The translations under genes and the position numbers were made by a program. This document shows positions 6,072 to 29,376 of a stretch of DNA of 29,455 bases, piece by piece. Numbering within the stretch: position 1 is the first letter of the stretch; each line of letters opens with the position of its first letter. The stretch is taken from positions 1 through 29,455 of IMG/VR virus record IMGVR_UViG_3300010354_013853; one strand, 5' to 3'. The DNA is from a virus. The notes under the pieces are model-generated. The model saw nothing but the letters and a program-made list of their open reading frames with translations, was not told where the DNA came from and did not search any database.

Positions 6072-6299
6072 TTACCAGTCAGGATACTCCCATGAATAGT
6101 ATATTTTTTTACTTCTTTTTTTGCGAATCCTGTTTATAGTACAGTCTTTGCACTCATATGAATATGATGAAGCTAGATACTTTTTTCCTTTTCGTATTAC
6201 GTAGTAATCAGTTAATAGATCCTTGGTTTCTCCACATGTCCTGCATTTTCTTTCTCTGAATAATAAGTGATCTAAAGAAAACTCATCTTCAATATCCAT
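6072..6299 (-). CDS. Small zinc-ribbon protein of unknown function
   Basis: This 75-residue basic protein carries two CxxC pairs, CRTCGETKD near residue 19 and YECKDC near residue 50. Together they look like one zinc-binding ribbon similar to those at the N-terminus of some phage HNH endonucleases, but no HNH catalytic motif follows. The C-terminus is Lys/Arg-rich (NRIRKKRSKK), suggesting nucleic-acid contact (inference). I place the start at the ATG at 6299, which overlaps the terminase stop as TAATG and has GGGAG about 8 bases upstream. A longer reading starts five codons earlier inside the terminase gene. The gene lies between large terminase and sheath. Function is not recognised. Confidence 0.75.
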   Translation of the reverse strand: MDIEDEFSLDHLLFRERKCRTCGETKDLLTDYYVIRKGKKYLASSYSYECKDCTINRIRKKRSKKIYYSWEYPDW

Positions 6300-9612: not shown

Positions 9613-9619
9613 TATTTAG
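9613..9619 (-). promoter_or_regulatory. Late promoter core CTAAATA before gp15
   Basis: The minus strand reads TCTAAATAATTAATAATTGG. The TAA is the stop codon of gp14, and the core lies about 20 bases before the gp15 ATG. The core deviates from ATAAATA by one base, so this is weaker than the exact sites. Confidence 0.4.
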
Positions 9620-12776: not shown

Positions 12777-13577
12777 ATGATTCTATTAACTGGATACAAA
12801 GGATTTATCGGGTCACATTTTCTCAAAGTAATCGAAGAGGAAATGCGAAAACCTGTCATTTGTATTGATAAAGATAATGCATGGGAATTTTTAAAAAAAT
12901 TCGATGACTGGAAAAAAATTGATTTGATATTACATCAGGGTGCAATATCGTCAACGACAGAGAAAAATATCAGAACGATATATCATAACAACGTAGCATT
13001 TACATTGATGTTAATGGAATATGCAATGGAGTATCAGATCCCTTTCAAGTATGCTTCATCGGCTTCGGTATATGGAAATACTCAAGGAGAGATCAATCCA
13101 CTCAACCAATATGCAATTTCAAAACTACAAATTGACTATTGTGTATTAGATAATCTTGATAAGTTTCCTTTGATTCAGGGATTCCGTTATTTTAACGTAT
13201 ATGGTGATGGAGAAGGACATAAAGGGGATCAGGCCAGTCCCATTTCCAAGTTTACTAAACAAATACGCGAAACTGGAAAACTAAGATTGTTCGAAGGATC
13301 TGATAAATTCTATAGAGATTTTGTTTACGTAAAAGATGTGGTTGACGTTGTGTTGAATAATGAATGTTCCAGTGGAATCTATGATATTGGGACTGGTGCT
13401 CCAATATCTTTCAAGGATGTTGCTGAACTTGTGGCTAAAAAAGAAGGGGGTGAGATCGAACTGATCCCATTCCCCGAACATCTGAAAGGCAAATATCAAG
13501 AATATACTTGTGCAAATACCTCATGGTATGATCATGATTATCTTTCCGTCAAACAGTATCTCCTGGAGATATCCTAA
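12777..13577 (+). CDS. hldD: ADP-L-glycero-D-manno-heptose 6-epimerase (HldD-like)
   Basis: This short-chain dehydrogenase-type NAD(P)-dependent enzyme epimerises ADP-D-glycero-D-manno-heptose to the L-glycero form, the last step to the LPS core heptose donor. The Rossmann motif GYKGFIG is at residues 6-12, ASSASVYG at 93-100 and the catalytic YxxxK at Y112-K116. HldD-specific segments are plain: HQGAISSTTE, RYFNVYGDGEGHKGDQAS, LRLFEGSDKFYRDFVYV and IPFPEHLKGKYQEYT, which closely parallel E. coli HldD. At 266 residues it is shorter than the 310-residue bacterial enzyme, with the loop after the Rossmann start and the C-terminus trimmed. It is the only plus-strand gene and overlaps the convergent cupin gene by 29 bases. 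Confidence 0.9.
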   Translation: MILLTGYKGFIGSHFLKVIEEEMRKPVICIDKDNAWEFLKKFDDWKKIDLILHQGAISSTTEKNIRTIYHNNVAFTLMLMEYAMEYQIPFKYASSASVYGNTQGEINPLNQYAISKLQIDYCVLDNLDKFPLIQGFRYFNVYGDGEGHKGDQASPISKFTKQIRETGKLRLFEGSDKFYRDFVYVKDVVDVVLNNECSSGIYDIGTGAPISFKDVAELVAKKEGGEIELIPFPEHLKGKYQEYTCANTSWYDHDYLSVKQYLLEIS

Positions 13578-13908
13578 TACTATCTTCATCAAAATGCTGA
13601 GTTGAAAATTCAAATAACTCAGTATCTTCAATAGCAATCATCTGGTGACGGAGACCACGATAAACGTGGAAACTGTCACCTTTTCTTAGGAATGTAATAT
13701 TTGCGAGTTCTGCGTCATCTCCATCGGAATGCAAAACTTTGATAATTCCAGACTGCACGTAGAACGTTTCGTCTTTTAGTTTATGGTAGTGCCACGAACA
13801 TTTTTTTCCTTGTGCAATATAAAGAAGTTTGCCACAATACTCTTCATTATTGACAATCCATTTTTCAAATCCCCATCCTTTGGGTACAAATTTAACTGAA
13901 GAAGTCAT
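13549..13908 (-). CDS. Cupin, sugar-isomerase-like
   Basis: This is a single-domain cupin (about 119 residues). The metal-binding set is visible: WHYHKLKDETFYV gives the HxH and Glu, and GLRHQMIA gives the later His. Small cupins of this pattern occur in polysaccharide gene clusters, where they are annotated as mannose-6-phosphate-isomerase or lyxose-isomerase-like proteins. I choose the ATG at 13908 (MTSSVKFVPKGWG), since AAGGA precedes it and the family begins near this point. An ATG eight codons upstream lacks a ribosome-binding site. The start overlaps the HAD gene's end by 17 bases. It is the last gene of the accessory operon. A role as sugar-phosphate isomerase, perhaps replacing GmhA, is a hypothesis. 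Confidence 0.8.
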   Translation of the reverse strand: MTSSVKFVPKGWGFEKWIVNNEEYCGKLLYIAQGKKCSWHYHKLKDETFYVQSGIIKVLHSDGDDAELANITFLRKGDSFHVYRGLRHQMIAIEDTELFEFSTQHFDEDSIRISPGDTV

Positions 13909-14227
13909 TGTCCTTAATACCCTTATCATCAATGTATATATCTGCTGCGGGTTTACCCATATGCAGTTCGTGAAACTTACATCCCCAAGATCTGAGTTGT
14001 TCGTAAGTTAATTCGTAAAAATCTCTATGCGCTAAAACTCTAGAATTTTTATGTCTACCCATTCCCCTTGCAGTTAAGTAGATAATATAATTGCCATCAT
14101 CATATAACTGATTTACTTTAGCAATTCTTTCTGGTTTTGCGATACTTGTCTCATAACGACCATCCTCTCTACAAGTGGGTTTATCGCAAATAGTTCCATC
14201 AATGTCTATGCAATAAGTTAATGTCAT
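13892..14227 (-). CDS. Small HAD-superfamily phosphatase
   Basis: This is a 111-residue HAD hydrolase. The nucleophile motif IDIDGTIC places Asp8 and Asp10. YLTARGMGR (about residues 49-57) carries the motif II Thr, and the C-terminal GKPAADIYIDDKG supplies the motif III Lys and motif IV acidic residues. It is much smaller than typical GmhB (about 190 residues) because it lacks a cap. Its position between the HldE-like kinase and the cupin suggests that it removes the C7 phosphate of heptose-1,7-bisphosphate, the GmhB step (inference from neighbours). It overlaps the kinase gene by 29 bases. Similar small HAD proteins in phages are also annotated as nucleotidases or capsular phosphatases. Confidence 0.8.
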   Translation of the reverse strand: MTLTYCIDIDGTICDKPTCREDGRYETSIAKPERIAKVNQLYDDGNYIIYLTARGMGRHKNSRVLAHRDFYELTYEQLRSWGCKFHELHMGKPAADIYIDDKGIKDNDFFS

Positions 14228-14972
14228 CTTCTGTCAATTTATAGGTTCCTGTGTGTTGAACTGCAATTGCAGCTGCTCTGTTAGCAAAATCAATGGATTT
14301 TTCCATATCAGAAGTACTAAGATAATTATACACCAATGCGGCTAAAAATGTATCCCCTGCACCTACCACATCATAAACATTGACTTTTTCTGATGGGAAA
14401 TGTATTCCTTGCCACTTTACTCCATTGCTACCATAAGTAACTATCAAATTTGATACTGGGGGGATGTAATCTGGATCCAATTGATTATATTCTCTTTCAT
14501 TTATTTTGTAGAAAACATTTTCTTTATGGAATAATTTTTTCTTCTTAGTATCTACAAAGACAGGTCCCTCAAAGGTATTGCATAAGGCTTCCAGTTCCGT
14601 CTCCCCCAGAAACCCTTTGTCGTAATCAGAAATAACCATGGCATCATATGAGCCATGAATAAATGCGATTCTAACTTGAGCCGCACTGCAAAGTGACGAG
14701 GTTCCCTCCTCATCCATTCTCATCAACTGTTGCCCAGATGTTTTATCTATAAATCTAGTCTTTACAATACTTTCTTTTTGTGTGATTAAATTAGTTTGTA
14801 TACCAAAGGACTTTAAGTTTTCATTGACATTTGATGCCATTCCTAAAGATTTTTCTGCGTATTCGTATTTGAATACAGGAACAGGAGCTTCTGGACTAAT
14901 CCTAGTTACAGATCCATATACAAATTCATCTTCACATGAATCACCAATTACTAATACTGTAAATTTATCCAT
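14199..14972 (-). CDS. PfkB-family sugar kinase, HldE N-terminal-domain-like
   Basis: This 257-residue PfkB/ribokinase-family protein resembles the kinase half of HldE (RfaE), which phosphorylates heptose-7-phosphate at C1. The start (VLVIGDSCEDEFVYG, then VTRISPEAPVPVFKYE) is the HldE signature, equivalent to RISPEAPVPVVKV in bacterial HldE. The glycine-rich lid is reduced to LGMASNVNENL. The C-terminal signature DVVGAGDTFLAAL has the catalytic Asp at 207. It is shorter than the HldE kinase domain (about 315 residues). It overlaps the separate nucleotidyltransferase gene by 8 bases, so the two make a split HldE. Confidence 0.87.
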   Translation of the reverse strand: MDKFTVLVIGDSCEDEFVYGSVTRISPEAPVPVFKYEYAEKSLGMASNVNENLKSFGIQTNLITQKESIVKTRFIDKTSGQQLMRMDEEGTSSLCSAAQVRIAFIHGSYDAMVISDYDKGFLGETELEALCNTFEGPVFVDTKKKKLFHKENVFYKINEREYNQLDPDYIPPVSNLIVTYGSNGVKWQGIHFPSEKVNVYDVVGAGDTFLAALVYNYLSTSDMEKSIDFANRAAAIAVQHTGTYKLTEDDINLLHRH

Positions 14973-15366
14973 AAGACTTAATTTTTTCTATGACTTTGCT
15001 GCTTGAATAATTTCCAACTCTTGGTAAGAATTTAAGCTCTTTTGCATAATCTCTGCCAATAACAACTCCGTTTTCCCAGTCATTCCCAAGAAGAAGTATA
15101 TCTGGACTATAGAGTTTGATTAAATTTTCTAGACCCTGAGTGTCCTCAAAATACAGAACTGTATCAATATATTTAATAGATTCTAACATACTTATTCTAT
15201 AACACAAATCATTTATTGGTTTGTGTGGTCCTTTGTCTTTGCGAATTTTTTCATCACTATCTGTTGCAACTATTAGTCTATCACCGAGAGACTTGGCGAC
15301 CTTAAATAGTTCAATGTGACCTGGATGCAAAATATCAAATGTTCCATTTACAAATACAGTTTTCAT
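14965..15366 (-). CDS. Nucleotidyltransferase, HldE C-terminal-domain-like
   Basis: This 133-residue cytidylyltransferase-fold protein has the signature GTFDILHPGH (residues 8-17, with the HxGH His14 and His17). It also has a C-terminal YSSSKVIEKI that stands in for the ISST motif. Members include the HldE adenylyltransferase half and TagD-like glycerol-3-phosphate cytidylyltransferases. The adjoining HldE-type kinase and the nearby HldD favour ADP-heptose synthesis, and the segment RLIVATDSDEKIRKDKG fits HldE. It overlaps the upstream gene as ATGA and the downstream kinase by 8 bases, so it is translationally coupled on both sides. Confidence 0.85.
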   Translation of the reverse strand: MKTVFVNGTFDILHPGHIELFKVAKSLGDRLIVATDSDEKIRKDKGPHKPINDLCYRISMLESIKYIDTVLYFEDTQGLENLIKLYSPDILLLGNDWENGVVIGRDYAKELKFLPRVGNYSSSKVIEKIKSYG

Positions 15367-16142
15367 AGACTCTCCAAGTACTTTTTATATTCATTATTAT
15401 TTACGGGAAGAAACGTTCCAGGACCGCCCAAAAATATAAAAAACATTTGAACTAATCTATGTGTATCTCCAGTAAACATATCTGGCTTTATGTATCCAGT
15501 ATGTAAGATATTGGCAGGATAGATTACAAATCTATTATATTTCATTTCAGCCAAATGGATCATTTCCCAGTCTGGTTCACTATCCGTTACATAATGGTCA
15601 TAATATGGGTACTTATCTACTTTTTTTAACCATGCATCTATTTTGTCTGCAGTTGATTTCTGTTCTCCCTCTAAAGTATAGAAGGAAGTTCCTCCTGCAC
15701 ATTCTTCCGGCTTATTGAGATAAACAGTTGCAGCAAATAACAAATCTCCAGTATCATCTACATGAGGTACTATTGGTTTCAAATTCTCAGATTGAGTTAC
15801 ATTTACACAAAAGGTTACTCCTTTTAATGAATCATATATTCTCTCATCACTTACATCTTTAACAATATCCCCATACACGGATCTAAAGATATAATGGAAA
15901 AAATTTCCCATTGGTGAAAAATCATAATATGCATCAACCCTCGATCCAGGAGCTCCAGCCATAATAATTGGATTTTTAGTTGGTGGTATAGTTAAAGCAA
16001 GATTCCTAACAAGGTCGGGATTTTTATAAAAATTATCAACATAGGTTATTCTTGATTTTTCTGGGCCAATAGTATGTACACTTGCTTCTAAATTTTGATT
16101 TAAAGCGAATACTTCATACTCATCAATAAAGTTTTTATTCAT
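15363..16142 (-). CDS. DUF6445-like 2-oxoglutarate/Fe(II) oxygenase-fold protein (paralog A)
   Basis: This 259-residue protein is clearly paralogous to the product of 16855-17583. Shared segments include FYKNPDLVR, LALTIPPT, ECAGGTSFY and DMFTGD...RLVQMFFI. A double-stranded beta-helix metal triad is readable: H127 and D129 in PHVDD, H214 in ILHTGY, with R229 in HRLVQMFF as the likely 2-oxoglutarate ligand. Substrate is unknown; the family is usually labelled DUF6445 or prolyl-hydroxylase-like. Compared with its paralog it has a 20-residue C-terminal extension. ATGA overlaps occur with both neighbours. A partner role with the halogenase is suggested by context only. Confidence 0.75.
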   Translation of the reverse strand: MNKNFIDEYEVFALNQNLEASVHTIGPEKSRITYVDNFYKNPDLVRNLALTIPPTKNPIIMAGAPGSRVDAYYDFSPMGNFFHYIFRSVYGDIVKDVSDERIYDSLKGVTFCVNVTQSENLKPIVPHVDDTGDLLFAATVYLNKPEECAGGTSFYTLEGEQKSTADKIDAWLKKVDKYPYYDHYVTDSEPDWEMIHLAEMKYNRFVIYPANILHTGYIKPDMFTGDTHRLVQMFFIFLGGPGTFLPVNNNEYKKYLESL

Positions 16143-16858
16143 CTCAAAAATCCCCTTAGTAATGGATTTACTTGTGTACGTATATTTCTAATAAAAAATA
16201 CCTGTGTCAATCGGATCTTATCGGAATTCATTTTAAAATTCATTGCAGCGTGATAATTATGCGCTTCAAATGCTATTAGTCTATTAAACACGTTGCAATA
16301 TCTGATGGTCTCTTCAAATTGTGATCTACTTTCCAACATATTTTTTGCATATTCCGATGGATCTACCTCTTCATTTCGAAATAATTCTTGTTTCAGTGGC
16401 TGATCTTTATTTAGCTCTCCATCAGTTTTTGCTCTAAAAATAGAAGTTCCAGTATCCAAATCAGCATCTGGTGTCAAATAAATTATTCCCGCATACTCAC
16501 ATTTTAGAGGTTCAAATCCTTTTACTGGATCGTAAACGCCATCTGAATCTTGATGGATCCATCCCCAATTCCTGGGGTCATTTTTATCATCAGAAAATGG
16601 TTTAATAATTTGAAAATGAGATTGTATTTCCCAACTAACCCAATCTCTATCAATATCAAAGAACATGCCTAACAATCGTTTACTGAACTGTTCATCAAAT
16701 GTGGGATCTATACGTGATAGTGGAACAGTTCTACTTCCAGGCCAAGCTGACCTTGGATCCACATCATAGTCCAATGACGCAGCCCATTCTATTATCTCAT
16801 ATGGATTAGAATAAAAGCCATCTACACAAATAGAAGGAAATCTTGCAGTATGTCTCAT
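16139..16858 (-). CDS. Divergent DUF6445-like oxygenase-fold protein (B)
   Basis: This 239-residue protein has the same architecture as its two flanking neighbours but little direct identity. An N-terminal FYSNPYEIIEWAASLDY parallels FYKNPDLVRDLAL. A WIHQDSDG motif supplies H102 and D104, AHNYHAAMNF supplies the distal His (H203 likely), and R216 sits in IRLTQVFFI. The central GIIYLTPDADLDTGTSIF matches the ALYLNTPDECAGGTSFY position. So the iron site appears complete. Enzymatic activity and substrate are unknown. It is joined to both neighbours by ATGA overlaps, so the three are made together. Confidence 0.7.
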   Translation of the reverse strand: MRHTARFPSICVDGFYSNPYEIIEWAASLDYDVDPRSAWPGSRTVPLSRIDPTFDEQFSKRLLGMFFDIDRDWVSWEIQSHFQIIKPFSDDKNDPRNWGWIHQDSDGVYDPVKGFEPLKCEYAGIIYLTPDADLDTGTSIFRAKTDGELNKDQPLKQELFRNEEVDPSEYAKNMLESRSQFEETIRYCNVFNRLIAFEAHNYHAAMNFKMNSDKIRLTQVFFIRNIRTQVNPLLRGFLR

Positions 16859-17583
16859 CGTTGTCTCAAAGGTATAAAAAACATCTGTACTAATCGGTAT
16901 CGGTCTCCAGTAAACATTTCTGGTTTAACATAGGCCGTATGTAAAACATTCCCTGGATACATTACTAATCTATTATACTTCATTTCTGCAACAGATAAAA
17001 GATCCCAATCTTTTTCGGAATCTACCAAATAGTGGGTATGAAAATTTCCATTATTTGTTTTTTTAAGCCAATTTCCAACTTCCTGATTTGTTACTTGTTG
17101 TTTACCCTCTAACATATAAAAGGAAGTTCCGCCGGCACATTCATCTGGTGTGTTGAGATATAACGCCGCAGCAAATAACATTCTATTCTCATCGTCAATA
17201 TGTGGAGTTACGGGAGGCATGTTGGTTGATTGATTTATATTTACGCAAAATGGCGTAGTAGTTATTGCAGTTTTTATTTCTTCGTCTGTGATTTCCTTAG
17301 TTATATCTCCATATACATTTCTGAAAACATGATGCAAAATTGGATACATGTTTACAAAATTATAATGACCAAAAACTCTAGATCCTGGAGTTCCACTTAG
17401 TATTTTTGCATTCTCTGTTGGTGGAATAGTTAATGCCAAATCTCTAACAAGATCTGGATTTTTATAAAAATTTTCAATAACAACTACTTTGACTTCCTCT
17501 GGACCAATAACATGCACAGAGGCTTCAAGATCTGGATTTACTTCGAATACATGTTTTTCATTAATAAAGTTTGGTTTTTTCAT
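16855..17583 (-). CDS. DUF6445-like 2-oxoglutarate/Fe(II) oxygenase-fold protein (paralog C)
   Basis: This 242-residue protein directly follows the halogenase gene, overlapping its end by 23 bases. The metal triad is H128 and D130 in PHIDD and H215 in VLHTAY, with R230 in YRLVQMFF. The N-terminal region has FYKNPDLVRDLALTIPPTE, nearly the same as paralog A, so one arose by duplication and the divergent copy B sits between them. The family has no proven reaction that I know. As I recall, related genes lie beside tryptophan-halogenase-like genes in Alphaproteobacteria, which fits this pairing. The start is supported by alignment with paralog A, since the ribosome-binding site is weak. Confidence 0.75.
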   Translation of the reverse strand: MKKPNFINEKHVFEVNPDLEASVHVIGPEEVKVVVIENFYKNPDLVRDLALTIPPTENAKILSGTPGSRVFGHYNFVNMYPILHHVFRNVYGDITKEITDEEIKTAITTTPFCVNINQSTNMPPVTPHIDDENRMLFAAALYLNTPDECAGGTSFYMLEGKQQVTNQEVGNWLKKTNNGNFHTHYLVDSEKDWDLLSVAEMKYNRLVMYPGNVLHTAYVKPEMFTGDRYRLVQMFFIPLRQR

Positions 17584-19078
17584 AATTTTTGTATGGATTT
17601 ATGAGTTCTTTTGAAAGAAATGGTAATTCAGAAAAATGTTTATTAAACACATATGCTTTAGGTAAATAATCATACTTATGTTCTTCATTAAGATAAAACT
17701 CTTCTATGAGAACACGAGACATCTCTTGTGATTTTACTTTTGGACATACTTCATATCCTAATTGAATTAACCAGCAAGCCCAATTGTTCGATGAAAACAT
17801 TTCTTTTCCGGCATTTGAAATATCTACTGTATTGGTTTTGAGTTCATTTATATAATAATCTAATTTTTCTGTTGATTTATAAGTATTTTTTACGAATTGC
17901 CAGAATTTTCCTTTTGATTTGGGTTTCATATAATGCATGTTTATAAAATCAATTGAATTTTCAAAGAAACATTTTAACTCCGCATTATAGAAATCTATGT
18001 CATGACTATCAAATTCTGTCGTTTTTATTCTGTTTAGTAGTCCCCATGCTCCAGCGCATATTAGTGCTATTCCCGTACTTTCCAATGGTTCAATAAAACC
18101 AGCAGATATGCCTACAGAAACTACATTTTTTTCCCAAAAGTTGGTATTGTAGAATGGAGTCCAATCTAAAACACGTAGTTGATCTATAGTAATTCTATTA
18201 TTCCAATATTCAACAAAATATTTTTTTGCTTCTTCTATATCAGTTACACTTCTATTAAAAACTAATCCCGATCCAATTCTCGTAGAAACTGGAACTTTCC
18301 AAATCCATCCATGATCTACGGCATCGCATACAGTATATGGATTTAATTCATTCTCTATGTCTACATATTCGACTCTTGTACAAACTGCAGTATCTACAAA
18401 AAGTCTATCTGTTAAATCTACTCTATGATTTTTTTCTTTCAATAATCCATTAAATCCAGTACAGTCTACAAATAAATCTGATTTATGAATCTGACCATTA
18501 TTTAAAATTAGTTCGACAACGTATCCATTTTCATCTCTAATAACATCCTTAACTTCGGACTGAATAAAGGTAACTCCATTTTCCAAGACTTTTTTTCTAA
18601 CAAAGTCAACCAAAAGTCCCGCATCTAAATGAAAAGAGTATATGCCCAAATTATCTGGATCTATCTTTTTATCTTTGGTATGTGCATTATAGTGAACAAG
18701 AGAATGCGTTTTGAAATCCAGATCCTGACAATTGGTCCAACAAGATATTAGATTAGTATTGTGGTTTGGGAAGTCTGGGTATGCGAAGGGATGCCAAATA
18801 TCTTTGCCATCTTCTAACCAGTTTTCAAAACGAATTCCTCCTTTAAATGTAGCGGAAACTTCTTTAAACCAATCCAAAATGTGAAATCCACAATCATCCA
18901 TAAATGACTTGAAACTCAAAATAGTAGCTTCACCCACTCCAATTGGTGTTCCAATTTCCTTATCAATTACATATATTTCTTTATAATATTTTATATTATG
19001 ATTTAGAAGGGCCGCAGTTAACCACGCTGAAGTCCCTCCACCAACAATTGTTATAGATTTAGCTCTTCTTTGAGTCAT
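17561..19078 (-). CDS. Flavin-dependent tryptophan-halogenase-like enzyme
   Basis: These enzymes use FADH2, oxygen and halide to make hypohalous acid, which halogenates aromatic or other electron-rich substrates. All signature elements are present in 505 residues: the FAD-binding GGGTSAW (residues 13-19), the catalytic Lys at position 79 in ATFKGGIRF (K79 in PrnA), HGWIWKVPV with the W258-x-W260-x-x-P263 motif, and FIEPLESTGIALI with E333 and S334, equivalent to E346/S347 of PrnA. So it looks catalytically competent. A flavin reductase partner is not seen in the window. A cyanophage relative, VirX1, is a known viral halogenase with preference for iodide. ATGA overlap with the carbamoyltransferase. 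The substrate may be tryptophan, an indole, a tyrosine or a protein residue. Confidence 0.92.
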   Translation of the reverse strand: MTQRRAKSITIVGGGTSAWLTAALLNHNIKYYKEIYVIDKEIGTPIGVGEATILSFKSFMDDCGFHILDWFKEVSATFKGGIRFENWLEDGKDIWHPFAYPDFPNHNTNLISCWTNCQDLDFKTHSLVHYNAHTKDKKIDPDNLGIYSFHLDAGLLVDFVRKKVLENGVTFIQSEVKDVIRDENGYVVELILNNGQIHKSDLFVDCTGFNGLLKEKNHRVDLTDRLFVDTAVCTRVEYVDIENELNPYTVCDAVDHGWIWKVPVSTRIGSGLVFNRSVTDIEEAKKYFVEYWNNRITIDQLRVLDWTPFYNTNFWEKNVVSVGISAGFIEPLESTGIALICAGAWGLLNRIKTTEFDSHDIDFYNAELKCFFENSIDFINMHYMKPKSKGKFWQFVKNTYKSTEKLDYYINELKTNTVDISNAGKEMFSSNNWACWLIQLGYEVCPKVKSQEMSRVLIEEFYLNEEHKYDYLPKAYVFNKHFSELPFLSKELINPYKNYEKTKLY

Positions 19079-20877
19079 TTATTTTTAACCTCAACCATCA
19101 ATCCATATTCGGGAAGATACATATATTCTATTAAACTATTCGCAAGAGTCCGTACCCCATCATCTAGTGTTTCGACCAGTGGTTCCCCACCCAAGTTAAA
19201 AGATGTATTAAAAATAATAGGACACCCAGTTTTAATATAAAATGTGTTAATCAGGTCATAATAATTTTTATTCTGTTCTTGAGTAACAGTTTGGATTCTG
19301 CAAGTTCCATCAACATGAATAATGGCTGGAATTTTTTCTTCTATTCCTTCTTGGCATTTAACAGCATACATCATAAATGGAGTATCCTCCATTCCTCTCA
19401 AATCAAACCATTCGTGAACATGTTCTTGAAGGATAGATCCCGCAAAAGGCCTAAAATATTCTCGCCTTTTAATACGATTTACATGGTCTTTTCCATCTGG
19501 ATCTCTAGGATCATACATGATTGAGCGATTACCTAAAGCTCTAGGTCCATTTTCAGATCTTCCCTGCCAGATAGAAACAATATTTTTTTCTACGATCAGG
19601 TCTACTACATCATCATTTGTTACTCTGAATACTCTATCAACATCATACTTATTCGCAATATCAAAGATTTCTTTTTCAGTTAAAGTATATTCTGGACCAT
19701 CATATAATGTCTGAACTGGGTTCCTTACCGTTTTATCCTCAGTAACTTTATAATGCGTAAGTAATGCCGCACCCATGGCTGTTCCTGCGTCATTACTCAC
19801 TGGTTCAACATACAAATTGATTCCCTCTTCTTTTAGTTGTTCAAGATACCAATAATTAGCGACACAGTTTAATGCATATCCACCAGAAAGAACTACATTT
19901 TTATTGCCACTCATCTCAACAGCCTTTCGAATCAAATCTAAAACCATAGATTGGGATTCAACCTGAATAGCATACGACATATCTCTTCTATTTTGAAGAG
20001 TCGTTAGGTCCCCATCATAGTTATTTGGAGTATGCAATTCTGGGAATCTGCCTTCATTGACCAGAGCACCATTTGGGTATGTTGGAATTATTACATCTCT
20101 ATTCGCAGTTTTCCACGAAGACTTGCCTTCCAAATCTGTATAAATCGAAGGAATCTTCTCATTTGGTTTTCCATATGGAAAAAGTCCCATAGTTTTGCCC
20201 GCTTCAATTGGAGCCCAACCACAATATTGAGTTACTGCTTCATATGCTTTAGTAATTCCGGCACTATCATCGAGAATCAACTCATGAGTTCCTTCTTCTC
20301 CTTCGCCATCACTTGGAAATTTTTGAATTCTTGCTGAACCCCATGGACCTCTTCCACCTTGGTGTTTATATAGGGTTTTAAACTCTGCAGGATACTTGCA
20401 GTCAAAAATAGTTTCTAATTCCCAAGTAGTTTCTACTTGGTTACCAATATTCATTGGGATAAAGGTGCCGGCGCCATCTACAATTAAAGCAACGGCATCC
20501 TTAAATCCAGACCTATAAAAAGCTGCAGCTGCGTGAAGTTTGTGGTGGGTTCTACTTAAGTCAATGACTTGTGGATGATCATGTGGGTTTGATTTTCTAT
20601 CAATCAACCCCAACTTTCTAGCTAATCCAGTATATACGTCATCTCCACTAAAATCTACTCTGCCTGCTGTTTGGCTTAATGATTGTGTATGTGCAATTAC
20701 TAGATAATCTAATTTTTTAGTATATTCTAGAATTTTAATCATGGCAGCAAAAGGACCGCCATCATATTTGTTTCTGGACAATCTTTCTTCTTCAATTGCA
20801 AATACGACTTCACCATCTTTGAGAAGACATACTCCACCATTGTGTCCTCTAGTGACACCCGCAATCCATTGTGTCAT
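19075..20877 (-). CDS. Carbamoyltransferase, NodU/CmcH family
   Basis: This enzyme class makes carbamoyl adenylate from carbamoyl phosphate and ATP, then transfers the carbamoyl group to a hydroxyl, often on a sugar (NodU on Nod factor) or an antibiotic (CmcH). The 600-residue length is typical. The N-terminal domain opens with the family pattern GVTRGHNGGVCLLKDGEVV and AIEEERLSRNKYD. LSRTHHKLHAAAAFYRSGF carries the conserved His cluster, and IVDGAGTFIP follows. The C-terminal YrdC-like domain has REYFRPFAGSILQEH and IIFNTSFNLGGEPLV. The ATG has TAGGAG 8 bases upstream. It lies between a GT9 gene and the halogenase, so a sugar or glycan hydroxyl is a reasonable acceptor (inference). Confidence 0.93.
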   Translation of the reverse strand: MTQWIAGVTRGHNGGVCLLKDGEVVFAIEEERLSRNKYDGGPFAAMIKILEYTKKLDYLVIAHTQSLSQTAGRVDFSGDDVYTGLARKLGLIDRKSNPHDHPQVIDLSRTHHKLHAAAAFYRSGFKDAVALIVDGAGTFIPMNIGNQVETTWELETIFDCKYPAEFKTLYKHQGGRGPWGSARIQKFPSDGEGEEGTHELILDDSAGITKAYEAVTQYCGWAPIEAGKTMGLFPYGKPNEKIPSIYTDLEGKSSWKTANRDVIIPTYPNGALVNEGRFPELHTPNNYDGDLTTLQNRRDMSYAIQVESQSMVLDLIRKAVEMSGNKNVVLSGGYALNCVANYWYLEQLKEEGINLYVEPVSNDAGTAMGAALLTHYKVTEDKTVRNPVQTLYDGPEYTLTEKEIFDIANKYDVDRVFRVTNDDVVDLIVEKNIVSIWQGRSENGPRALGNRSIMYDPRDPDGKDHVNRIKRREYFRPFAGSILQEHVHEWFDLRGMEDTPFMMYAVKCQEGIEEKIPAIIHVDGTCRIQTVTQEQNKNYYDLINTFYIKTGCPIIFNTSFNLGGEPLVETLDDGVRTLANSLIEYMYLPEYGLMVEVKNK

Positions 20878-22099: not shown

Positions 22100-22978
22100 T
22101 TATCCTTTGTATTTTGCTCTTTCCATCTGTGCAAGTCCTTCCGCTTCAATGCGTTCCTGGTTCGCTAGACGTTTTGCCTCAACTGCGGCTACTTTTGGAT
22201 CAGCCGCCAAAGCTGCAGCAATTACACCTACACCTACATTTGGTGTATTTGTGTCTGGGTGAATAGGAGGCATTTTCGCTGCAATCATTGCAGGAATCCC
22301 ATGTGTTTCTACTAGAGTTGGCCAATCTCTAAGATATTGACGATAATCTTTCCATGCTTCTACCATTGAAGTAGGCATATCAGTACTTATTGCATTATCA
22401 GAAGAACTAAGCATCTCATTTCTTCTCATTCGAATGTCAGTGACATCAATCTCAATATCCTGACCAAATAGACATTCACATACTTTAAATGGTCTTGCAA
22501 CTGGTTCGCCATCAACAACTCTAACTGACAATGGATCGAAAATAAATTTGGGAAGAATTGGTAAACTATAATGATACTGTTCATATCCATCAAGGTTTGG
22601 AGATTCTGGATGGGCAACAACTAATCCGGCAGATTCTCCAGTCTGTGAATTTGGTGTTTTTCCATCTGGTCCAATAGGACCTGAAATTTCTTGTGATTCA
22701 TTAATAATTGGTCCTCTTAACTGACAAATAAGAGGGTGAACAGTGCAATCAACTTCATGCCACTCAACAACGTCAGCTGGCATTGGACGACCATCTGCGA
22801 TATCATCTTCTGTTAGTGGGCCATATCTTTCATATCCATCTTCGCCAATTTGAAGATAGATCTTGTCTGGTCCATGATACGTGTACTTTCTCGATTTACC
22901 TAAATCATACTCATGATCGACAAGATAGTCGTTTGGAAGTGGTAGATCAAATTCTACTTTAATGATTGTTGTTGCCAT
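22100..22978 (-). CDS. Probable virion or tail-fibre-associated protein with tail-assembly-chaperone-like segment
   Basis: This 292-residue protein has no N-terminal match that I recognise. Residues about 181-222 (MRRNEMLSSSDNAISTDMP, then EAWKDYRQYLRDWPTL) resemble the phage tail assembly chaperone (APC) segment, usually RD-LL-x-TDW...WxxYRQxLRDxP, found at the ends of fibre-assembly proteins. A GPIGPDGKTPN segment at about 100-110 looks collagen-like. The last 30 residues (AKRLANQERIEAEGLAQMERAK) look like a coiled coil. Its place after fibre-like genes supports a tail role. An exact TATAAATA late promoter lies upstream and a hairpin terminator follows, so it forms its own unit. AGGAG lies about 19 bases upstream of the ATG, longer than usual spacing. 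Confidence 0.6.
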   Translation of the reverse strand: MATTIIKVEFDLPLPNDYLVDHEYDLGKSRKYTYHGPDKIYLQIGEDGYERYGPLTEDDIADGRPMPADVVEWHEVDCTVHPLICQLRGPIINESQEISGPIGPDGKTPNSQTGESAGLVVAHPESPNLDGYEQYHYSLPILPKFIFDPLSVRVVDGEPVARPFKVCECLFGQDIEIDVTDIRMRRNEMLSSSDNAISTDMPTSMVEAWKDYRQYLRDWPTLVETHGIPAMIAAKMPPIHPDTNTPNVGVGVIAAALAADPKVAAVEAKRLANQERIEAEGLAQMERAKYKG

Positions 22979-23009: not shown

Positions 23010-23017
23010 TATTTATA
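23010..23017 (-). promoter_or_regulatory. Late promoter TATAAATA (exact T4 consensus) before the 292-residue gene
   Basis: The minus strand reads GTTTATAAATATTATC, an exact late core. It sits 10 bases after the T-run of a strong terminator and about 31 bases before the ATG. Terminator and promoter together isolate the 292-residue gene from the Cys-rich array. Confidence 0.75.
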
Positions 23018-23026
23018 AACTTTCAT

Positions 23027-23052
23027 AAAAAAAGTGGGTCGGTATACCCACC
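23027..23052 (-). terminator. Intrinsic terminator after the Cys-rich gene array
   Basis: The stem GTGGGT/ACCCAC (23034-23039 with 23046-23051) has a 6-base loop and is followed on the minus strand by seven T bases. This is the most convincing intrinsic terminator in the window and ends transcription of the three Cys-rich genes. Confidence 0.8.
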
Positions 23053-23079: not shown

Positions 23080-23862
23080 TTAAACGTAAGTGATCTTAAC
23101 TATTCCTGGACCACCAGTATTTCCATAACCATTGTCCCATCCAGAACAATAAGTATTCATAGCACCCATTCCACCATTTCCATATGGAACCGTCCAACAA
23201 CCATGACGAATCCAACAAGTCATCATGTTTTGTTGCACATCTGTCCCTAAGAATGGAGCAGAAGAAGGAGCGGATCCTTGACAATGACAGTGGCATTGGC
23301 TTGTTAACCACCCAAAGTTTCCAGTATGGTTACCCATGCCAAAATCTCCACCATTATTTCCAGGAGCTAAACAACACTCAAATACTGAGTTGCAAGCCTC
23401 TTGCCAAGAAGTATTTGCCTCTCCTCTATATCCACCAATTGCACAGAAGTTACTCAAATTATATCCATTTACATATGAAGCGCATCCTTGGCAACCAACA
23501 CATTCAAGGGAACAACAAGGATATACGCCAGAAGCACAAATAGTATATTGGCAACCAGGAGCAGTAGTGATAGTTTTGCTATTATAATAACCACCACCAG
23601 CACCTCTGTAGTGATGGCATCTGTCCCAAGAACAGGATCCGTGTCCATTGCCACCAGATCCCCATAATTCAAAAGTTATTCTTCCTACTCCAGTAGGAAC
23701 AGTCCAAAGACAGCAACATCCACCGCTAAGTACGTTTGGTGAACCATAAATCCATTTCACGTTCCAAGTAGCAAATGCCGTTGATGAAATCTTAGAATCA
23801 TTGATAATTCCAGCCCCAAAGGCATCTGATTGCACTTTTTTATATGAACTGTAATTTGCCAT
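23080..23862 (-). CDS. Cysteine/glycine-rich structural-like protein, copy 3
   Basis: This 260-residue protein has 22 cysteines (about 8.5 percent), unlike the nearly Cys-free neighbours. The layout is a short N-terminal segment starting MANYSSYK, then GGCCCLWTVP, a domain with ITFELWGSGGNGHGSCSWD followed by RCHHY, GCQYTICASG, CCSLECVGCQGC, ECCLAPGNNGGD, HCHC, and the C-terminal GNTGGPGIVKITYV. The pattern WTVPxGV...ELWGxGG...PGxxYTIxxGG matches the Gly-rich domain found on phage tail tips and other virion proteins, with many positions replaced by Cys. Cys pairs and CHCHC could form disulfides or bind metal (inference). AAAGGGAA precedes the ATG. Strongest similarity is to copy 2. Confidence 0.75.
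   Translation of the reverse strand: MANYSSYKKVQSDAFGAGIINDSKISSTAFATWNVKWIYGSPNVLSGGCCCLWTVPTGVGRITFELWGSGGNGHGSCSWDRCHHYRGAGGGYYNSKTITTAPGCQYTICASGVYPCCSLECVGCQGCASYVNGYNLSNFCAIGGYRGEANTSWQEACNSVFECCLAPGNNGGDFGMGNHTGNFGWLTSQCHCHCQGSAPSSAPFLGTDVQQNMMTCWIRHGCWTVPYGNGGMGAMNTYCSGWDNGYGNTGGPGIVKITYV
23114..23151. repeat. 38-bp exact repeat, copy in Cys-rich gene 3
   Basis: These 38 bases are identical to 23924-23961, in the same orientation and frame near the 3' ends of two paralogous genes (encoding CSGWDNGYGNTGG). Identity at the DNA level among otherwise diverged codons points to recent duplication or gene conversion. Confidence 0.85.
23618..23666. repeat. 49-bp exact repeat, copy in Cys-rich gene 3
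   Basis: These 49 bases are identical to 24443-24491 and encode the same segment (ELWGSGGNGHGSCSWDRC region) in both genes. Flanking bases differ, so this is a short patch of perfect identity in diverged paralogs. Confidence 0.9.
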
Positions 23863-23883
23863 TTTTTATGTTCCCTTTGGTTT

Positions 23884-23890
23884 TATTTAT
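23884..23890 (-). promoter_or_regulatory. Late promoter core AATAAATA before Cys-rich gene 3
   Basis: The minus strand reads TTAATAAATAAAACC. The first A of ATAAATA is the last base of the upstream gene's TAA stop. It lies about 22 bases before the ATG. Confidence 0.5.
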
Positions 23891-24687
23891 TAAAAATAAG
23901 TAATTTTGACGAGTCCAGGTCCGCCAGTATTTCCATAACCATTGTCCCATCCAGAACAATATGATGTTTGAGCTCCTTCTGCGCCATGACCATATGGAAC
24001 TGTCCAACAACCATGGCGAATCCAACAGAAGTTGATAGACATTTCTACGTCGGTTCCAATAACAGGAGCTGTACTAGCTCTCGTGGTTTGTTTATGACAG
24101 TGACAGAATCCAACGTCAAACCACCATTCCACCGAACCAAATCTTCCAGCGTGTCCAATCCATGTCATATCGCCTCCATTGTTTCCAGGCGCCAAGCAGC
24201 ACTCAAACGAGGAATAACAAGTTTCTGTCCAAGAAGTTTCTCCACAACCACCAGAACCACCAGGAGCACAAAAGTTACTTAGATTATATCCATTGACATA
24301 TGAAGAACATCCTTGGCAACCAGTACAATTGAAAGAACAACAAGGATATACACCACCAGCACAAATAGTATATTGACATCCAGGAACAGTATTAATGTAT
24401 TTGGAGTTATAAGCTCCTCCTCCAGCGGACTTGAAGTGTTGACATCTGTCCCAAGAACAGGATCCGTGTCCATTGCCACCAGATCCCCATAGTTCAATCT
24501 GCATTTTTGATACGCCAGAAGGAACTGTCCAAAGGCAACAACATCCACCACTAGTTGAGTTTGGTGAACCATAAAACCATTGGATACCATAATTTTTCCT
24601 GGCCCCAGGTGCAATCATTGCATCAGTAACGAAAGAATCTGGTATGTTGTCAGAATTCAGCTGTTTATAGGAAGAGTAATTTGCCAT
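23890..24687 (-). CDS. Cysteine/glycine-rich structural-like protein, copy 2
   Basis: This is a 265-residue paralog with 22 cysteines. It shares with copy 3 the blocks GGCCCLWTVPSGV, ELWGSGGNGHGSCSWDRC, PGCQYTICAGGVYPCC, GCQGCSSYVNGYNLSNFC, ECCLAPGNNGGD, CWIRHGCWTVPYG and the GNTGGPGLVKITYF end. The middle differs (SVEWWFDVGFCHCHKQTT). The conserved blocks contain most Cys, so the scaffold is kept while loops vary, as in a receptor-binding tip (inference). TAAGGAAAA lies about 10 bases upstream of the ATG. No function is known. It shares 49-bp and 38-bp exact DNA repeats with copy 3. Confidence 0.75.
   Translation of the reverse strand: MANYSSYKQLNSDNIPDSFVTDAMIAPGARKNYGIQWFYGSPNSTSGGCCCLWTVPSGVSKMQIELWGSGGNGHGSCSWDRCQHFKSAGGGAYNSKYINTVPGCQYTICAGGVYPCCSFNCTGCQGCSSYVNGYNLSNFCAPGGSGGCGETSWTETCYSSFECCLAPGNNGGDMTWIGHAGRFGSVEWWFDVGFCHCHKQTTRASTAPVIGTDVEMSINFCWIRHGCWTVPYGHGAEGAQTSYCSGWDNGYGNTGGPGLVKITYF
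23924..23961. repeat. 38-bp exact repeat, copy in Cys-rich gene 2
   Basis: Identical to 23114-23151, same orientation, near the 3' end of the paralogous gene. Confidence 0.85.
24443..24491. repeat. 49-bp exact repeat, copy in Cys-rich gene 2
   Basis: Identical to 23618-23666, same orientation and same reading frame. The matching part of Cys-rich gene 1 (near 25255-25305) is related but clearly diverged. Confidence 0.9.
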
Positions 24688-24710
24688 TTTTTAAATGTTT
24701 TCCTTAGTAC

Positions 24711-24717
24711 TATTTAC
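24711..24717 (-). promoter_or_regulatory. Possible weak late core GTAAATA before Cys-rich gene 2
   Basis: The minus strand reads TGTAAATAGTAC. Its TAA is the stop codon of Cys-rich gene 1, the same stop/promoter fusion as elsewhere in the window, but the core has one mismatch to ATAAATA. Confidence 0.3.
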
Positions 24718-25496
24718 ACGTAAGTAATCTTTACGACTCCACTTCCACCAATTCCACCATATCCATTGTCCCAGTTTCCACAATAAGTTGTCATTCCGCC
24801 GCCGCCACCTTGTGCATAAGTTGATGTCCAACATGCATGACGAACCCAACATACTGATAGTTCACCACCATATGTTGATCCAGCTAAGAATGGTGCGTTT
24901 GAAGAACACCAAGTGTGACGATAACAGTGACAAGCATGGGGCCCAGTTCCTGCGGGTCTCATGTTACCCATAGCAAAATCAGAGTTATTCATATTCGGAT
25001 CGACGCAACAGTTCCAATCCGAGAAACAAGCTTCACTCCAGGAAGTATTAGCGCATCCTGGATTTCCACCGATAGCGCAGAAGTTGCTTAAGTTGCATCC
25101 ATTTACATATGTAACGCAACCGCAACAACCTACACACTCAAAATTACAACATCCGTAAGTTCCACCTGCACAAACTGTATACGTCCACCCTGGACATACA
25201 GCAATTGTTTTAGATGCGAATGATCCGCCACCTGCACCAAAATAGTGGTGGCAACGGTCCCAGGAACAAAATCCATGTCCGTTTCCACCAGCACCCCATA
25301 GTTCAAAAGTTACCTTGTGTACACCACTCGGAACAGTCCAATTACAACAACATCCAGCAGTACATCCACCAATAGGTCCACGAATCCATTGGACCCCATA
25401 TTTGTATCCGACTCCTGTTCCAAATGCAGAGTCTGGAATACTTGCATTTGCAACTTGATCTGCAACTAATTTTTTATAACTTCCGTATGATGCCAT
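24714..25496 (-). CDS. Cysteine/glycine-rich structural-like protein, copy 1
   Basis: This is the most diverged and most Cys-rich of the three paralogs: 26 cysteines in 260 residues (10 percent). The framework is retained: GCCCNWTVPSGVHKVTFELWG, GGNGHGFCSWDRCHHY, TYTVCAGGTYGCC, GCCGCVTYVNGCNLSNFC, CWVRHACW and GGIGGSGVVKITYV. Variable parts include ACHCYRHTWCSS. It is the first of the array after the 1272-residue fibre-like gene and a hairpin terminator. The ribosome-binding site is weak and no ATAAATA core is seen, so readthrough of the terminator may supply its transcript. Its function is unknown. The Gly-rich domain resemblance suggests an external tail or tip protein. Confidence 0.75.
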   Translation of the reverse strand: MASYGSYKKLVADQVANASIPDSAFGTGVGYKYGVQWIRGPIGGCTAGCCCNWTVPSGVHKVTFELWGAGGNGHGFCSWDRCHHYFGAGGGSFASKTIAVCPGWTYTVCAGGTYGCCNFECVGCCGCVTYVNGCNLSNFCAIGGNPGCANTSWSEACFSDWNCCVDPNMNNSDFAMGNMRPAGTGPHACHCYRHTWCSSNAPFLAGSTYGGELSVCWVRHACWTSTYAQGGGGGMTTYCGNWDNGYGGIGGSGVVKITYV

Positions 25497-25524: not shown

Positions 25525-25549
25525 AAAAGGGAGGGGAAATTCCCCTCCC
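25525..25549 (-). terminator. GC-rich hairpin after the fibre-like gene
   Basis: GGGAGGGGAA and TTCCCCTCCC (25529-25538 and 25540-25549) form a perfect inverted repeat separated by one A. On the minus strand it is followed by TTTTCC. It lies 9 bases past the stop of the 1272-residue gene. The short T-run suggests partial termination. Confidence 0.65.
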
Positions 25550-25557
25550 GAGTTATA

Positions 25558-28500
25558 TTAGATCGAGAAGATTCTCCATCCATAAGTATCACCCGAGAAG
25601 GTAAGGTCAAACGCCGCACCTTCAACGTTAACAGTAAGATCTGCAGAGTCTCCTTGGATCAGTTTGCCATTTCTAGCAACCGTAAGGGCATTGTTATCGA
25701 AGGTCTTAGCAATATCGAAGAATCTGATCGTATCTCCAAGATTTGGAACAGCTGGAAGTGTAATAGTGATTTGACCACCAACTGTATTCACGAAGTAAAC
25801 ATTATTCGCAGCTGCGGTTGTTCCATTCGAAGAAACAGTGTTGTACTGTAGTTTTCCAGGAGCAACCCAAGTAGTTCCATCATAGTACTCAAGAGCACCA
25901 ATAGTGGTGTTGAATCTAAGAGCACCCTGGAGGAAGCTAGGATCGACGCCACCAGGTCTTTGAGCAGTGCTACCTACTGGTGGGACCATTGCGCCCGTAC
26001 CCATCTTGCCGCGGGTTACATAACCGCGAACGGCGTATTCTGTTGGACATGCGCTGTTGGAGTTACCCGAGAGGAATTCATCAGATGAGAATTCGTTAAT
26101 TGACTCACCAACCTGACCACCAATAGCACCCAGTCTCAGTTCAGTAAGACCAGATAGGTTGAACGCAGAAGCGTCAAGAGTTGCACGACCAGTTAACTGA
26201 TCAACCGAGAAGAACCTACCAACTCTGAAGTTACCACCTTGGTCGGTAGATACGAAGAATACCTTACCGCCATTATACTCTCTGGTTTCATTACCTTGAA
26301 TGATAGCAGCTTCATTAACGTTTGGATAATTGGTTTCAACTTTGTTGCCAGTACCAACCGATAGGAAGTCGTGACCAGTTAGACGAACTTGAGAGAATCT
26401 ATTTCTAACAATGATGGAAGAACCAGCACCTACATTATTATCTGTGTTTCCATTAGGCCTGATGTTTCTGGTATCAGGTGTTGCAGGACCTTTTTCTGGA
26501 GAAATCGTGAGAGTTGCTCTGTTGAAATAAGTATATCCAATACCAGCGGTATCACGATAAGTAACCGCAGTGGAAACATTAGTGATTGTGTTGATGATAT
26601 AGAAGAATGCATCTGCACCAAATGTGGTAGTAATACCAATTGCGTCACCAACTAGGAATGTTCCCGTTGAAGCATCAACTTCCAGAATTGTTCCTTTCTG
26701 GCCACTTACGGAACTTGCTGCGGCACCAACATAGAAGGATCCAGCATAACCCGCACCACTTGAAATATCGTAAGAGTAAACGAGTTCCCCATCAGTGAAT
26801 GGTGTGAGACCAACTCCGATGTTTCCAGTTGCTGCAGTTGCTGTTGCACCAAATCCTGGTTGATACTTGAAGTATAACTTATCTGCAGATCTCTGATCGT
26901 TTAGAATCCAACCCTTAGATCCAGAAGACTGTCCAATAATTGTTTGACCAATAGCAACTGTACCTTGAATTGTTGCACCCTGGATCTTCATCAGATCACC
27001 GAATATTCTTGCATATCTTGGTACTTCTGAAGTCGAGAATCCAGATGCAATAACACCATAGTCACCGTAAGAGTTGTTACCACCAACTCCACGAATTCTG
27101 GAACCACCACCAGAGTAGTATCCCCACTTAGCATAGTAAGTAAAGCAGGAAACGATCTCAGCAATTGCGTTTCTATCAAGAACATAACCAGCGCCATCAC
27201 TGGATACGTGAGTAAACGCATCGAATACCATCGATCTTGCACCCTCTTCATGGACGCCACCATCGATGAAACAACCTACAGCACCGCCACCAAATCTTCC
27301 ATCCGCAGAAGCAGGATCTGAGAATGCAGTACAATCCTTAACATAAGGTGACTTATTGTTAATTGGTGAGTTGGGGTTGAATGCGAAGTACTTACCACAA
27401 GCGGTTGTACCTACACCAGTTCTGATATTGGTATTATTGATTTCAAATGGAGCATTTGAATCATAATGGAATCCTTCAAGACCTTTGAATGATAGTGCCT
27501 GAATAGTAGTACCATCACTCAACTGGAACATGGTCGATCTGTTGTTTGGAGTCGAATTATCATCCGAGAATCCAGTTGCAGGAAGAACTTGAGTTCCTCT
27601 GAGCGAGTGACCAATAATTGAAGTAAATGGTGGAACAACGATAGGAAGTTGCTCGTAGAATTGAGAAGCGGATAGTCTCAGTACAGCAGGAGTAAGGTCA
27701 GTTAGATGTCCACCAGATACGTAAGTATGAGCAATTGTTGATGGACCTACGTTAACGGTAACTCTATTTGTGTCTAGAACCTGAAGAACTTCGAAGTACG
27801 ACTTAGATGCAACGTCTGGGAAAATAGTTGTGGTAATACCAGCGAATATTGTACCCCCACCGATGTAGGAGAATCCATAAGTTCTGATACCGACGTTCAG
27901 TGCAACTGAGTTGTTACTTGGAATTGCAGTAATTGGGAAGTTTGACTCACCAAAAATATTAGCAAATAATCCAGTAGTAGTTCCAGCACCAGCGTCATAG
28001 GAAACTTGAATATCTCTGAGTCTTAGTCTCTCACCAATTCCACTTTCTGGAGCAAGACCGATATTAATCGCAGTTACAGTAGCGATACCAGTCGATGCAG
28101 TATAGTTAAATCCAAGAACTCCATAACTTCTACCACCAGAAGTACATTCGAATTCAATATTTTGTAACTGAATAAACGTACCAACGTTCTTTAGTCCGTG
28201 ACCAGGAGCAGTAATTGTTGAAAGTCCTGTAGAAGCAGTATATTCGAAGTTAGTAATGTTTCTATCTGGACGTGCCGCTTGACAAGCTCTCTTAATTGTT
28301 TGGAATGCTAGGTTTGGTGCAAGACCGTTAAAATTATCATTACCAGTTTCCGAGTCAACATAGTAAACTCGTGTTTGAGCACCAACGATCTGATATCCAG
28401 GTAGTCCGTCTTGGTTTACTGCAAGTGCATAACCAGTAGATCCGATACCAATTCTGAAAGGACCACCATTATAGGTAAGAATATCACCCTTGGTAGTAAG

Positions 28501-29376
28501 AGCAGCTGAGCTATCACCAGCAGCAAGAGTTTCCCAATATGTACCTAAACCAGCAAGTGGTGTGATATTTGAGAATGAATTGCCAATTGCAACATATGAG
28601 TTTGACCCATATCTTGCAACGTGACCTGGACTGTAGTTAAACGTGGTGGAGAAGTTGCCAACAAATTTAAATCCTTGTACAAGAAGATCCCAAACGGAGT
28701 TTCCGATACCAACTCCAGATCCAGTATCCCCAAGACCCAAAGGATATACATTGGTTGTAATACCTACTTTATGTCTGTAGATATTACCACCGTATTGAAC
28801 TAACTGTCCTCTATAGTAGGTTCCTGGGGTAAAGGAAATTGCAGCACCCGCAAGTCCATCTGCAAGAACCTGCCAGGTTTTACCAGCAACATCAGTTCCG
28901 ATAGCAACGTTTGTTGGAGGAAGATATCCAGCAAGAGAAGTTGTAAGAGCAACGTATGAAGAACCCTGATAGTTAACAACGTCTCCAGTCTGATATTGTG
29001 TATCGATATTCCACTCACCTTCTGCATTAAATCCAGCTACGTATTCCGCAACCTTGCTTAGGTCGGGGAAAGTTCCAGCAGAAAGGTGTGCGGTTACAAC
29101 TCTATATTGGACGTTACCAAATTTAAAAATTTCATTCTGTCTATAGTAGACACCTGCTGCCCACTCTCCAGTATTGGTAATTCCTTCTAGGTGTACATTC
29201 CAATATGGAAGATCTGTACTATAAAAGTCAGCAGTACTGGCAACTGATGTGTGGTTGGTAACCGCAACGTATGAATTCCCACCGAACTTGATGATGTCAT
29301 CAATCAAGTAGGATCTGGATGGCTGCCAGTTACCAGTCCAGTTGAATTTTACTCTTCCAAGTCTAAACTCAGCCAT
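25558..29376 (-). CDS. Large tail-fibre-like structural protein
   Basis: This 1272-residue protein is of the kind found as a long structural gene in T4-like cyanophages. Residues about 16-287 hold five modules with the pattern Y..G..V.YGG..Y.......P.....W..L, similar to carbohydrate-binding (chitin-binding type 3-like) repeats. The middle (about 335-1000) is Gly/Thr/Ser-rich beta structure beginning VYYVDSETGNDNFNGLAPN, a start typical of parallel beta-helix stalks. Near the C-terminus are GGNFRVGRFFSVDQLTGRA and LRFNTTIGALEYYDGTTW, shared among phage fibre proteins. The end is a small beta domain (IRFFDIAKTFDNNALTV, SGDTYGWRIFSI). AAGGAGAAAAA precedes the ATG. A hairpin terminator follows. 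Confidence 0.82.
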   Translation of the reverse strand: MAEFRLGRVKFNWTGNWQPSRSYLIDDIIKFGGNSYVAVTNHTSVASTADFYSTDLPYWNVHLEGITNTGEWAAGVYYRQNEIFKFGNVQYRVVTAHLSAGTFPDLSKVAEYVAGFNAEGEWNIDTQYQTGDVVNYQGSSYVALTTSLAGYLPPTNVAIGTDVAGKTWQVLADGLAGAAISFTPGTYYRGQLVQYGGNIYRHKVGITTNVYPLGLGDTGSGVGIGNSVWDLLVQGFKFVGNFSTTFNYSPGHVARYGSNSYVAIGNSFSNITPLAGLGTYWETLAAGDSSAALTTKGDILTYNGGPFRIGIGSTGYALAVNQDGLPGYQIVGAQTRVYYVDSETGNDNFNGLAPNLAFQTIKRACQAARPDRNITNFEYTASTGLSTITAPGHGLKNVGTFIQLQNIEFECTSGGRSYGVLGFNYTASTGIATVTAINIGLAPESGIGERLRLRDIQVSYDAGAGTTTGLFANIFGESNFPITAIPSNNSVALNVGIRTYGFSYIGGGTIFAGITTTIFPDVASKSYFEVLQVLDTNRVTVNVGPSTIAHTYVSGGHLTDLTPAVLRLSASQFYEQLPIVVPPFTSIIGHSLRGTQVLPATGFSDDNSTPNNRSTMFQLSDGTTIQALSFKGLEGFHYDSNAPFEINNTNIRTGVGTTACGKYFAFNPNSPINNKSPYVKDCTAFSDPASADGRFGGGAVGCFIDGGVHEEGARSMVFDAFTHVSSDGAGYVLDRNAIAEIVSCFTYYAKWGYYSGGGSRIRGVGGNNSYGDYGVIASGFSTSEVPRYARIFGDLMKIQGATIQGTVAIGQTIIGQSSGSKGWILNDQRSADKLYFKYQPGFGATATAATGNIGVGLTPFTDGELVYSYDISSGAGYAGSFYVGAAASSVSGQKGTILEVDASTGTFLVGDAIGITTTFGADAFFYIINTITNVSTAVTYRDTAGIGYTYFNRATLTISPEKGPATPDTRNIRPNGNTDNNVGAGSSIIVRNRFSQVRLTGHDFLSVGTGNKVETNYPNVNEAAIIQGNETREYNGGKVFFVSTDQGGNFRVGRFFSVDQLTGRATLDASAFNLSGLTELRLGAIGGQVGESINEFSSDEFLSGNSNSACPTEYAVRGYVTRGKMGTGAMVPPVGSTAQRPGGVDPSFLQGALRFNTTIGALEYYDGTTWVAPGKLQYNTVSSNGTTAAANNVYFVNTVGGQITITLPAVPNLGDTIRFFDIAKTFDNNALTVARNGKLIQGDSADLTVNVEGAAFDLTFSGDTYGWRIFSI

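Follow-up and report, generated by a model that had tools for sequence, protein, structure and literature searches.

Results

Three cysteine-rich genes between a tail-fibre gene and a fibre-assembly gene

The window, meaning the whole stretch of DNA analysed, is a virus record of 29,455 bp. The terminase shares 84% identity with its counterpart in Synechococcus phage Sf-FS3 and 82% with that of S-SSM7, indicating that the window comes from a T4-like cyanophage akin to S-SSM7 (Lipsvirus). Three tandem genes on the minus strand, named A, B and C in the order of transcription, encode cysteine-rich proteins, and the open reading frames and cysteine counts were exactly those given in an earlier note on this DNA (Table 1). 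The remaining window proteins contain a mean of 0.84% cysteine, which excludes chance as the source of the cysteine richness (binomial tail, 1e-15 to 1e-20 for the three copies).

Table 1. Features of the three-gene array and its flanks in the window.
Feature	Position	Strand	Content	Annotation or place
Long tail-fibre protein	25558-29376	minus	1272 aa	phrog_9851 tail fiber, E 7e-294; directly upstream of copy A
Intrinsic-terminator-like hairpin	25529-25549	minus		between fibre gene and copy A
Copy A	24714-25496	minus	260 aa, 26 Cys	predicted TG-fold (TNF-like + glycine-rich) fibre-tip protein; phrog_4205, E 3.7e-37
Copy B	23890-24687	minus	265 aa, 22 Cys	same family as copy A; phrog_4205, E 3.3e-51
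Copy C	23080-23862	minus	260 aa, 22 Cys, CHCHC	structure predicted; phrog_4205, E 2.9e-53
Hairpin and T-run	23034-23051	minus (stem listed on plus; read on minus in gap sequence)		between copy C and chaperone gene
TATAAATA, T4-type late-promoter motif	23010-23017	minus		before chaperone gene
Putative tail-fibre-assembly-type chaperone	22100-22978	minus	292 aa	PHROG tail fiber assembly; directly downstream of copy C

The neighbourhood of the trio is fixed. A tail-fibre gene was found upstream in all 78 distinct arrays with sequence there, the chaperone gene lay downstream in 95 of 95, and the order fibre-A-B-C-chaperone showed no variation. The putative chaperone label is based on a C-terminal motif, the Tfa-type PF16778, present in all 27 orthologues of the gene; a PDB fold search with the model of this protein gave no match at E ≤ 0.001, and so none like Pam3 gp25 or Tfa of Mu. 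The window carries three tandem DUF6445 genes (15363-17583, minus strand); the Sf-FS3 genes at a similar place are annotated as 2OG-Fe(II)/prolyl-4-hydroxylase-like, and a relative was located just after the chaperone gene in 33 of the 95 arrays. These proteins might modify fibre proteins or sugars.

Elsewhere in the window, a sugar-type cassette at 12777-20877 encodes a tryptophan halogenase, carbamoyltransferase, cytidylyltransferase, PfkB kinase and epimerase (opposite strand), and is common to S-SSM7 and P-SSM2. The gene at 9616-11898 encodes a structural-type protein of 760 aa in which a long insertion looks lectin-like, and a small GTG-started open reading frame with two CxxC pairs and no Pfam match lies before the terminase gene (6072-6314).

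The array proteins found no match in Bellamy or S-SCSM1, and the stretches examined carry other fibre genes; because these phages are close by terminase (80% and 78%, respectively), the array is probably an exchangeable module. Three GTDB matches were considered as possible non-phage hosts and rejected. These contigs of metagenome-assembled genomes (L232, L233 and L234) come from marine genomes labelled as unrelated phyla and have the same three-gene array (Actinomycetota, Rhodobacteraceae and Flavobacteriales), and are best read as misbinned phage DNA.

The trio has the layout of one expression unit

The A-B and B-C gaps had a median length of 14 bp, and a terminator-like hairpin or ATAAATA was found in none of 138; in the window, one ATAAATA overlaps the stop codon of copy B. 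Since gaps so short could hardly hold a hairpin, their emptiness reflects tight packing and is not an independent absence. The boundary gaps measured 70 bp (fibre-A) and 104 bp (C-chaperone). Terminator-like hairpins occurred in 35 of 68 fibre-A and 46 of 68 C-chaperone gaps, and ATAAATA in 26 and 53 of the same 68, respectively. This operon-like layout points to a trio that would be co-expressed as one unit.

Copy C is predicted to adopt a fibre-tip fold

All three copies match PHROG 4205 (function unknown) across essentially the whole protein, and relatives were encoded on 379 stretches in one IMG/VR scan. The glycine-rich backbone recognised in the earlier note was borne out by matches of A, B and C to Pfam PF21722 (Gly_rich_2) at E 1e-4, slightly below the curated cut-off (21.4-22.8 bits vs 24.3); the same domain was detected at E ≤ 0.01 in 80 of 127 family members, with a best value of 5.1e-9.

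The structure of copy C was predicted by AlphaFold2 with the 127 family members as input (pLDDT 84.7, pTM 0.80). The top Foldseek match in the PDB was the tail fibre of cyanophage Pam3 (7ypx_A; E 1.2e-5, probability 1.00, 247 columns), with a TM-score to Pam3 gp24 of just 0.47. The next PDB matches were the TNF-like/glycine-rich ligand-binding (TG) domains of the animal receptors ALK and LTK, followed by the tail tip of mycobacteriophage Bxb1. Among predicted viral proteins, those of S-CAM3 and P-SSM2 matched best, together with many phage "glycine-rich domain" or tail-fibre proteins including Syn9 gp38. PDB sequence searches with a single copy or the family profile as query returned no relevant match, so the relation to Pam3 is seen by fold comparison only. 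The model supports a receptor-binding fibre-tip fold for the copies and, together with the fixed fibre and chaperone neighbours and the conserved cysteine blocks described below, the glycine-rich receptor-binding scaffold at the tail tip that the earlier note had envisaged.

Relation to known fibre tips

The cyanophage fibre Pam3 gp24 is a homotrimer that depends on the chaperone gp25, and receptor recognition is attributed to its TNF-like and glycine-rich domains (PMC9608196). As the best structural match (PDB 7ypx, 7yfw), it shares with the trio the TNF-like and glycine-rich domains, an assembly chaperone, a cyanophage background and, for the trio probably, a place at the fibre tip. It differs in being one gene making a homotrimer, whereas the window has three genes and a separate fibre gene. 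Its N-terminal helical domain docks to the baseplate (PMC9608196), whereas the window proteins have no long helical stem; residues 1-33 of the copy C model were of low pLDDT and contained helices of 3 residues only. The Pam3 glycine-rich domain has 39% glycine (PMC9608196), compared with 17.2% glycine and 10% cysteine over the whole protein in the trio family, which is thus not a glycine-dominated tip.

Syn9 gp36 and gp38 are encoded in the tail-fibre region like the trio, and gp38 is a fold-level match, but with 111 Gly/8 Cys and 58 Gly/2 Cys, respectively, they are ordinary glycine-rich tips. Since comparable Syn9 tip proteins contain so few cysteines, the cysteine-rich composition is a trait of the trio subfamily and its P-SSM2/S-CAM1 cousins. 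The gp38 of T-even phages and S16 is a separate small glycine-rich protein, the product of a single gene that directly follows the distal fibre gene, and is not known to be cysteine-rich. The trio likewise begins directly after a fibre gene in 78 of 78 arrays, a fibre that we infer to be the distal one. Pam3 gp24 has been reported to resemble S16 gp38 (PMC9608196); T-even/S16 gp38 was absent among the best 50 PDB matches of copy C.

The PHROG 4205 relatives in S-SSM7 (SSSM7_114-116), Sf-FS3 (97-99) and S-SSM6a belong to the same family, with three copies, the same neighbours and 58% identity, and all are annotated "hypothetical protein". S-SSM7 keeps cysteine at columns where the window's group has Trp, His or Asn. 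A further S-SSM7 annotation, SSSM7_117 (L029:12542-12871), overlaps the third array gene in another frame and is probably spurious. At the same genome place, P-SSM2 (gp304 and gp306) and S-CAM1 (224-226) encode cysteine-rich Gly-domain proteins of about 280-380 aa, in two copies in the P-SSM2 class compared with three in the trio class.

Copy number, descent and selection

Exactly three copies were present in 100 of 100 distinct complete arrays, and the two exceptions in count were cut by a contig end. The P-SSM2-like class had exactly two copies, of about 350-380 aa with 29-42 cysteines, in each of 26 loci (L161-L186); in P-SSM2 itself the gene at the chaperone position sits between the two cysteine-rich genes. 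Copy number is thus fixed within a class, and the recurrence of exactly three suggests that the trio works together as one part.

When the position labels A, B and C were placed on a tree of 34 arrays, 7 changes were needed, compared with 48 for shuffled labels. In AU tests on a smaller, more careful tree, a single origin was not rejected for A (p 0.125), B (p 0.102) or C (p 0.057); within the clade of the window itself, C groups with B (support 100/98). Judged from these trees, the three positions have descended largely as separate lineages, and the three paralogues are old.

In close orthologue pairs, dN/dS was 0.12-0.17 over whole genes and 0.08-0.23 over segments, indicating purifying selection on all three and showing no sign of positive selection or hypervariable loops. 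The earlier note's phrase "diversified by duplication" found no support in that wording: among close relatives every segment lacks hypervariability on recent time scales, and the paralogues are old, under purifying selection and constant in number.

Across the family, identity specific to A, B or C was concentrated at residues 21-40, 61-70 and 181-209 and at the last residue, and residues 71-80, 111-120 and 240-249 tended to be common to all three proteins that a given phage encodes. At residue 244 (column 269), the three copies agreed in having or lacking cysteine in 69 of 69 arrays, compared with 45.5 expected, a count behind which stand few independent events because the arrays are related. 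In the window's group, A, B and C all carry Trp79 and Asn244, and most copies carry His220. Such sharing within a phage fits parts that may meet in one assembly, and old gene conversion, itself possible, would give the same pattern. Recent conversion was rejected because identical residues of the window paralogues share codons at just 53-65%; the shared CSWDRC block showed no excess between A and B/C.

Conserved cysteines as candidate disulfide staples

Among 207 sequences, cysteine occupies 13 of the 37 columns that never vary and 19 of the 64 that are at least 95% conserved. The conserved cysteine blocks of the earlier note were therefore confirmed, whereas the CHCHC cluster is confined to copy C (CHCYR in A, CHCHK in B), its family-wide part being C-H-C only. 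In the copy C model, 17 of 22 cysteines fall in loops, as do 173 of 260 residues, with no clear excess; because the loop share roughly follows the loop content, it is the conservation of the cysteines and not their location that is evidence for a special role. From composition, and by analogy with Agrobacterium phage Milano, whose tail is stabilised by many disulfides (PMC10811340), the cysteines would most likely serve as disulfide staples. Milano differs in that its structural proteins have 2.1% cysteine, mainly in the sheath and baseplate and not in the fibre tip (PMC10811340).

The cysteines might instead bind metal, with zinc or iron held at the tip by the C-H-C, CxxC and CCC clusters, a proposal that concerns their role and is compatible with either assembly discussed below. 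It would account for the near invariance of C190-H191-C192 and for column 241, which is Cys in 191 sequences, His in 16 and no other residue. Cysteine counts were odd in 104 and even in 103 of the 207 sequences, a parity without signal for closed intrachain disulfides, which allows for free, inter-chain or metal-bound cysteines. Iron-binding HxH motifs have also been proposed in the tail fibres of other marine phages (PMC11705849), but HxH is unconserved in the family alignment, and about 20 conserved cysteines, many in adjacent pairs or triplets, show no recognisable zinc-finger spacings. We regard metal binding as unlikely and disulfides as the preferred, though tentative, reading. Correlations between cysteine columns were dominated by one clade, and no pairs could be assigned from them.

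Discussion

The results are jointly explained, with reasonable probability, if a Lipsvirus-like T4-type cyanophage builds a single distal tail-fibre tip from A, B and C as its three subunits, which are made together, chaperoned, in contact with the receptor and held by disulfides. Each subunit would combine a short anchor at the N-terminus with a TNF-like beta-sandwich and a glycine-rich tip, and the roughly 20 conserved cysteines would sit in the loops of that tip. One transcript would yield the subunits in similar amounts, the downstream chaperone would help them fold, and the tip would sit distally on the long tail fibre encoded upstream, the 1272-aa protein being its probable carrier. The tip loops would touch the picocyanobacterial surface; the cysteines would stand in for some of the glycine lattice found in ordinary tips and keep these loops in place, the disulfides most likely closing after lysis, in oxic seawater.

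How the subunits would assemble can be argued in two ways. Given a fold that forms trimers in Pam3 and three gene copies here, A1B1C1 would be the simplest assembly, and a heterotrimer is favoured but unproven; a 1:1:1 trimer is not forced, because the P-SSM2 class carries its related cysteine-rich tips in pairs. The stronger version, an obligate, disulfide-stapled A1B1C1 tip that lost the three-fold symmetry of a homotrimeric phage tip through gene triplication and has cysteine cross-links in place of the glycine lattice, is possible but doubtful. Alternatively, the genes could encode three independent homotrimeric adhesins, on different fibres or stacked, that give several receptor specificities. 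Pam3 gp24 is a homotrimer, the paralogues are most different at residues 181-209 and could there bind different ligands, and Syn9 has several ordinary glycine-rich tip proteins beside its fibres. A repertoire of specificities should, however, gain and lose copies, yet every complete array has three, in a single order and one tightly packed unit, with loops free of hypervariability, and we hold independent adhesins to be unlikely. That the trio is no part of the virion and consists of cysteine-rich cytoplasmic or accessory proteins co-transcribed with fibre genes is highly improbable in view of the fold match to a fibre protein and the fixed place between fibre and fibre-assembly genes. In its favour, virion proteomics covering any trio-family member was not found in the literature, where a 2010 cyanophage study covered the proteomes of S-SM1, S-PM2 and Syn9 only. 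Taken together, the evidence favours a single obligatory tip of three co-expressed subunits over paralogues that diversify freely.

The fold and the genomic place are themselves of known kinds. New are the connection between PHROG 4205 and the Pam3/ALK-like fold, the fixed three copies, the operon-like layout and the contrast between cysteine-rich and glycine-rich tips, of which the open-access literature yielded no description. Host recognition by phages of picocyanobacteria is little known at the protein level, and the present analysis provides a fold and a likely role for an abundant, unannotated family. Whereas the characterised Pam3 tip is one protein in three copies, the trio is a candidate for a fibre tip that always combines three different cysteine-rich subunits.
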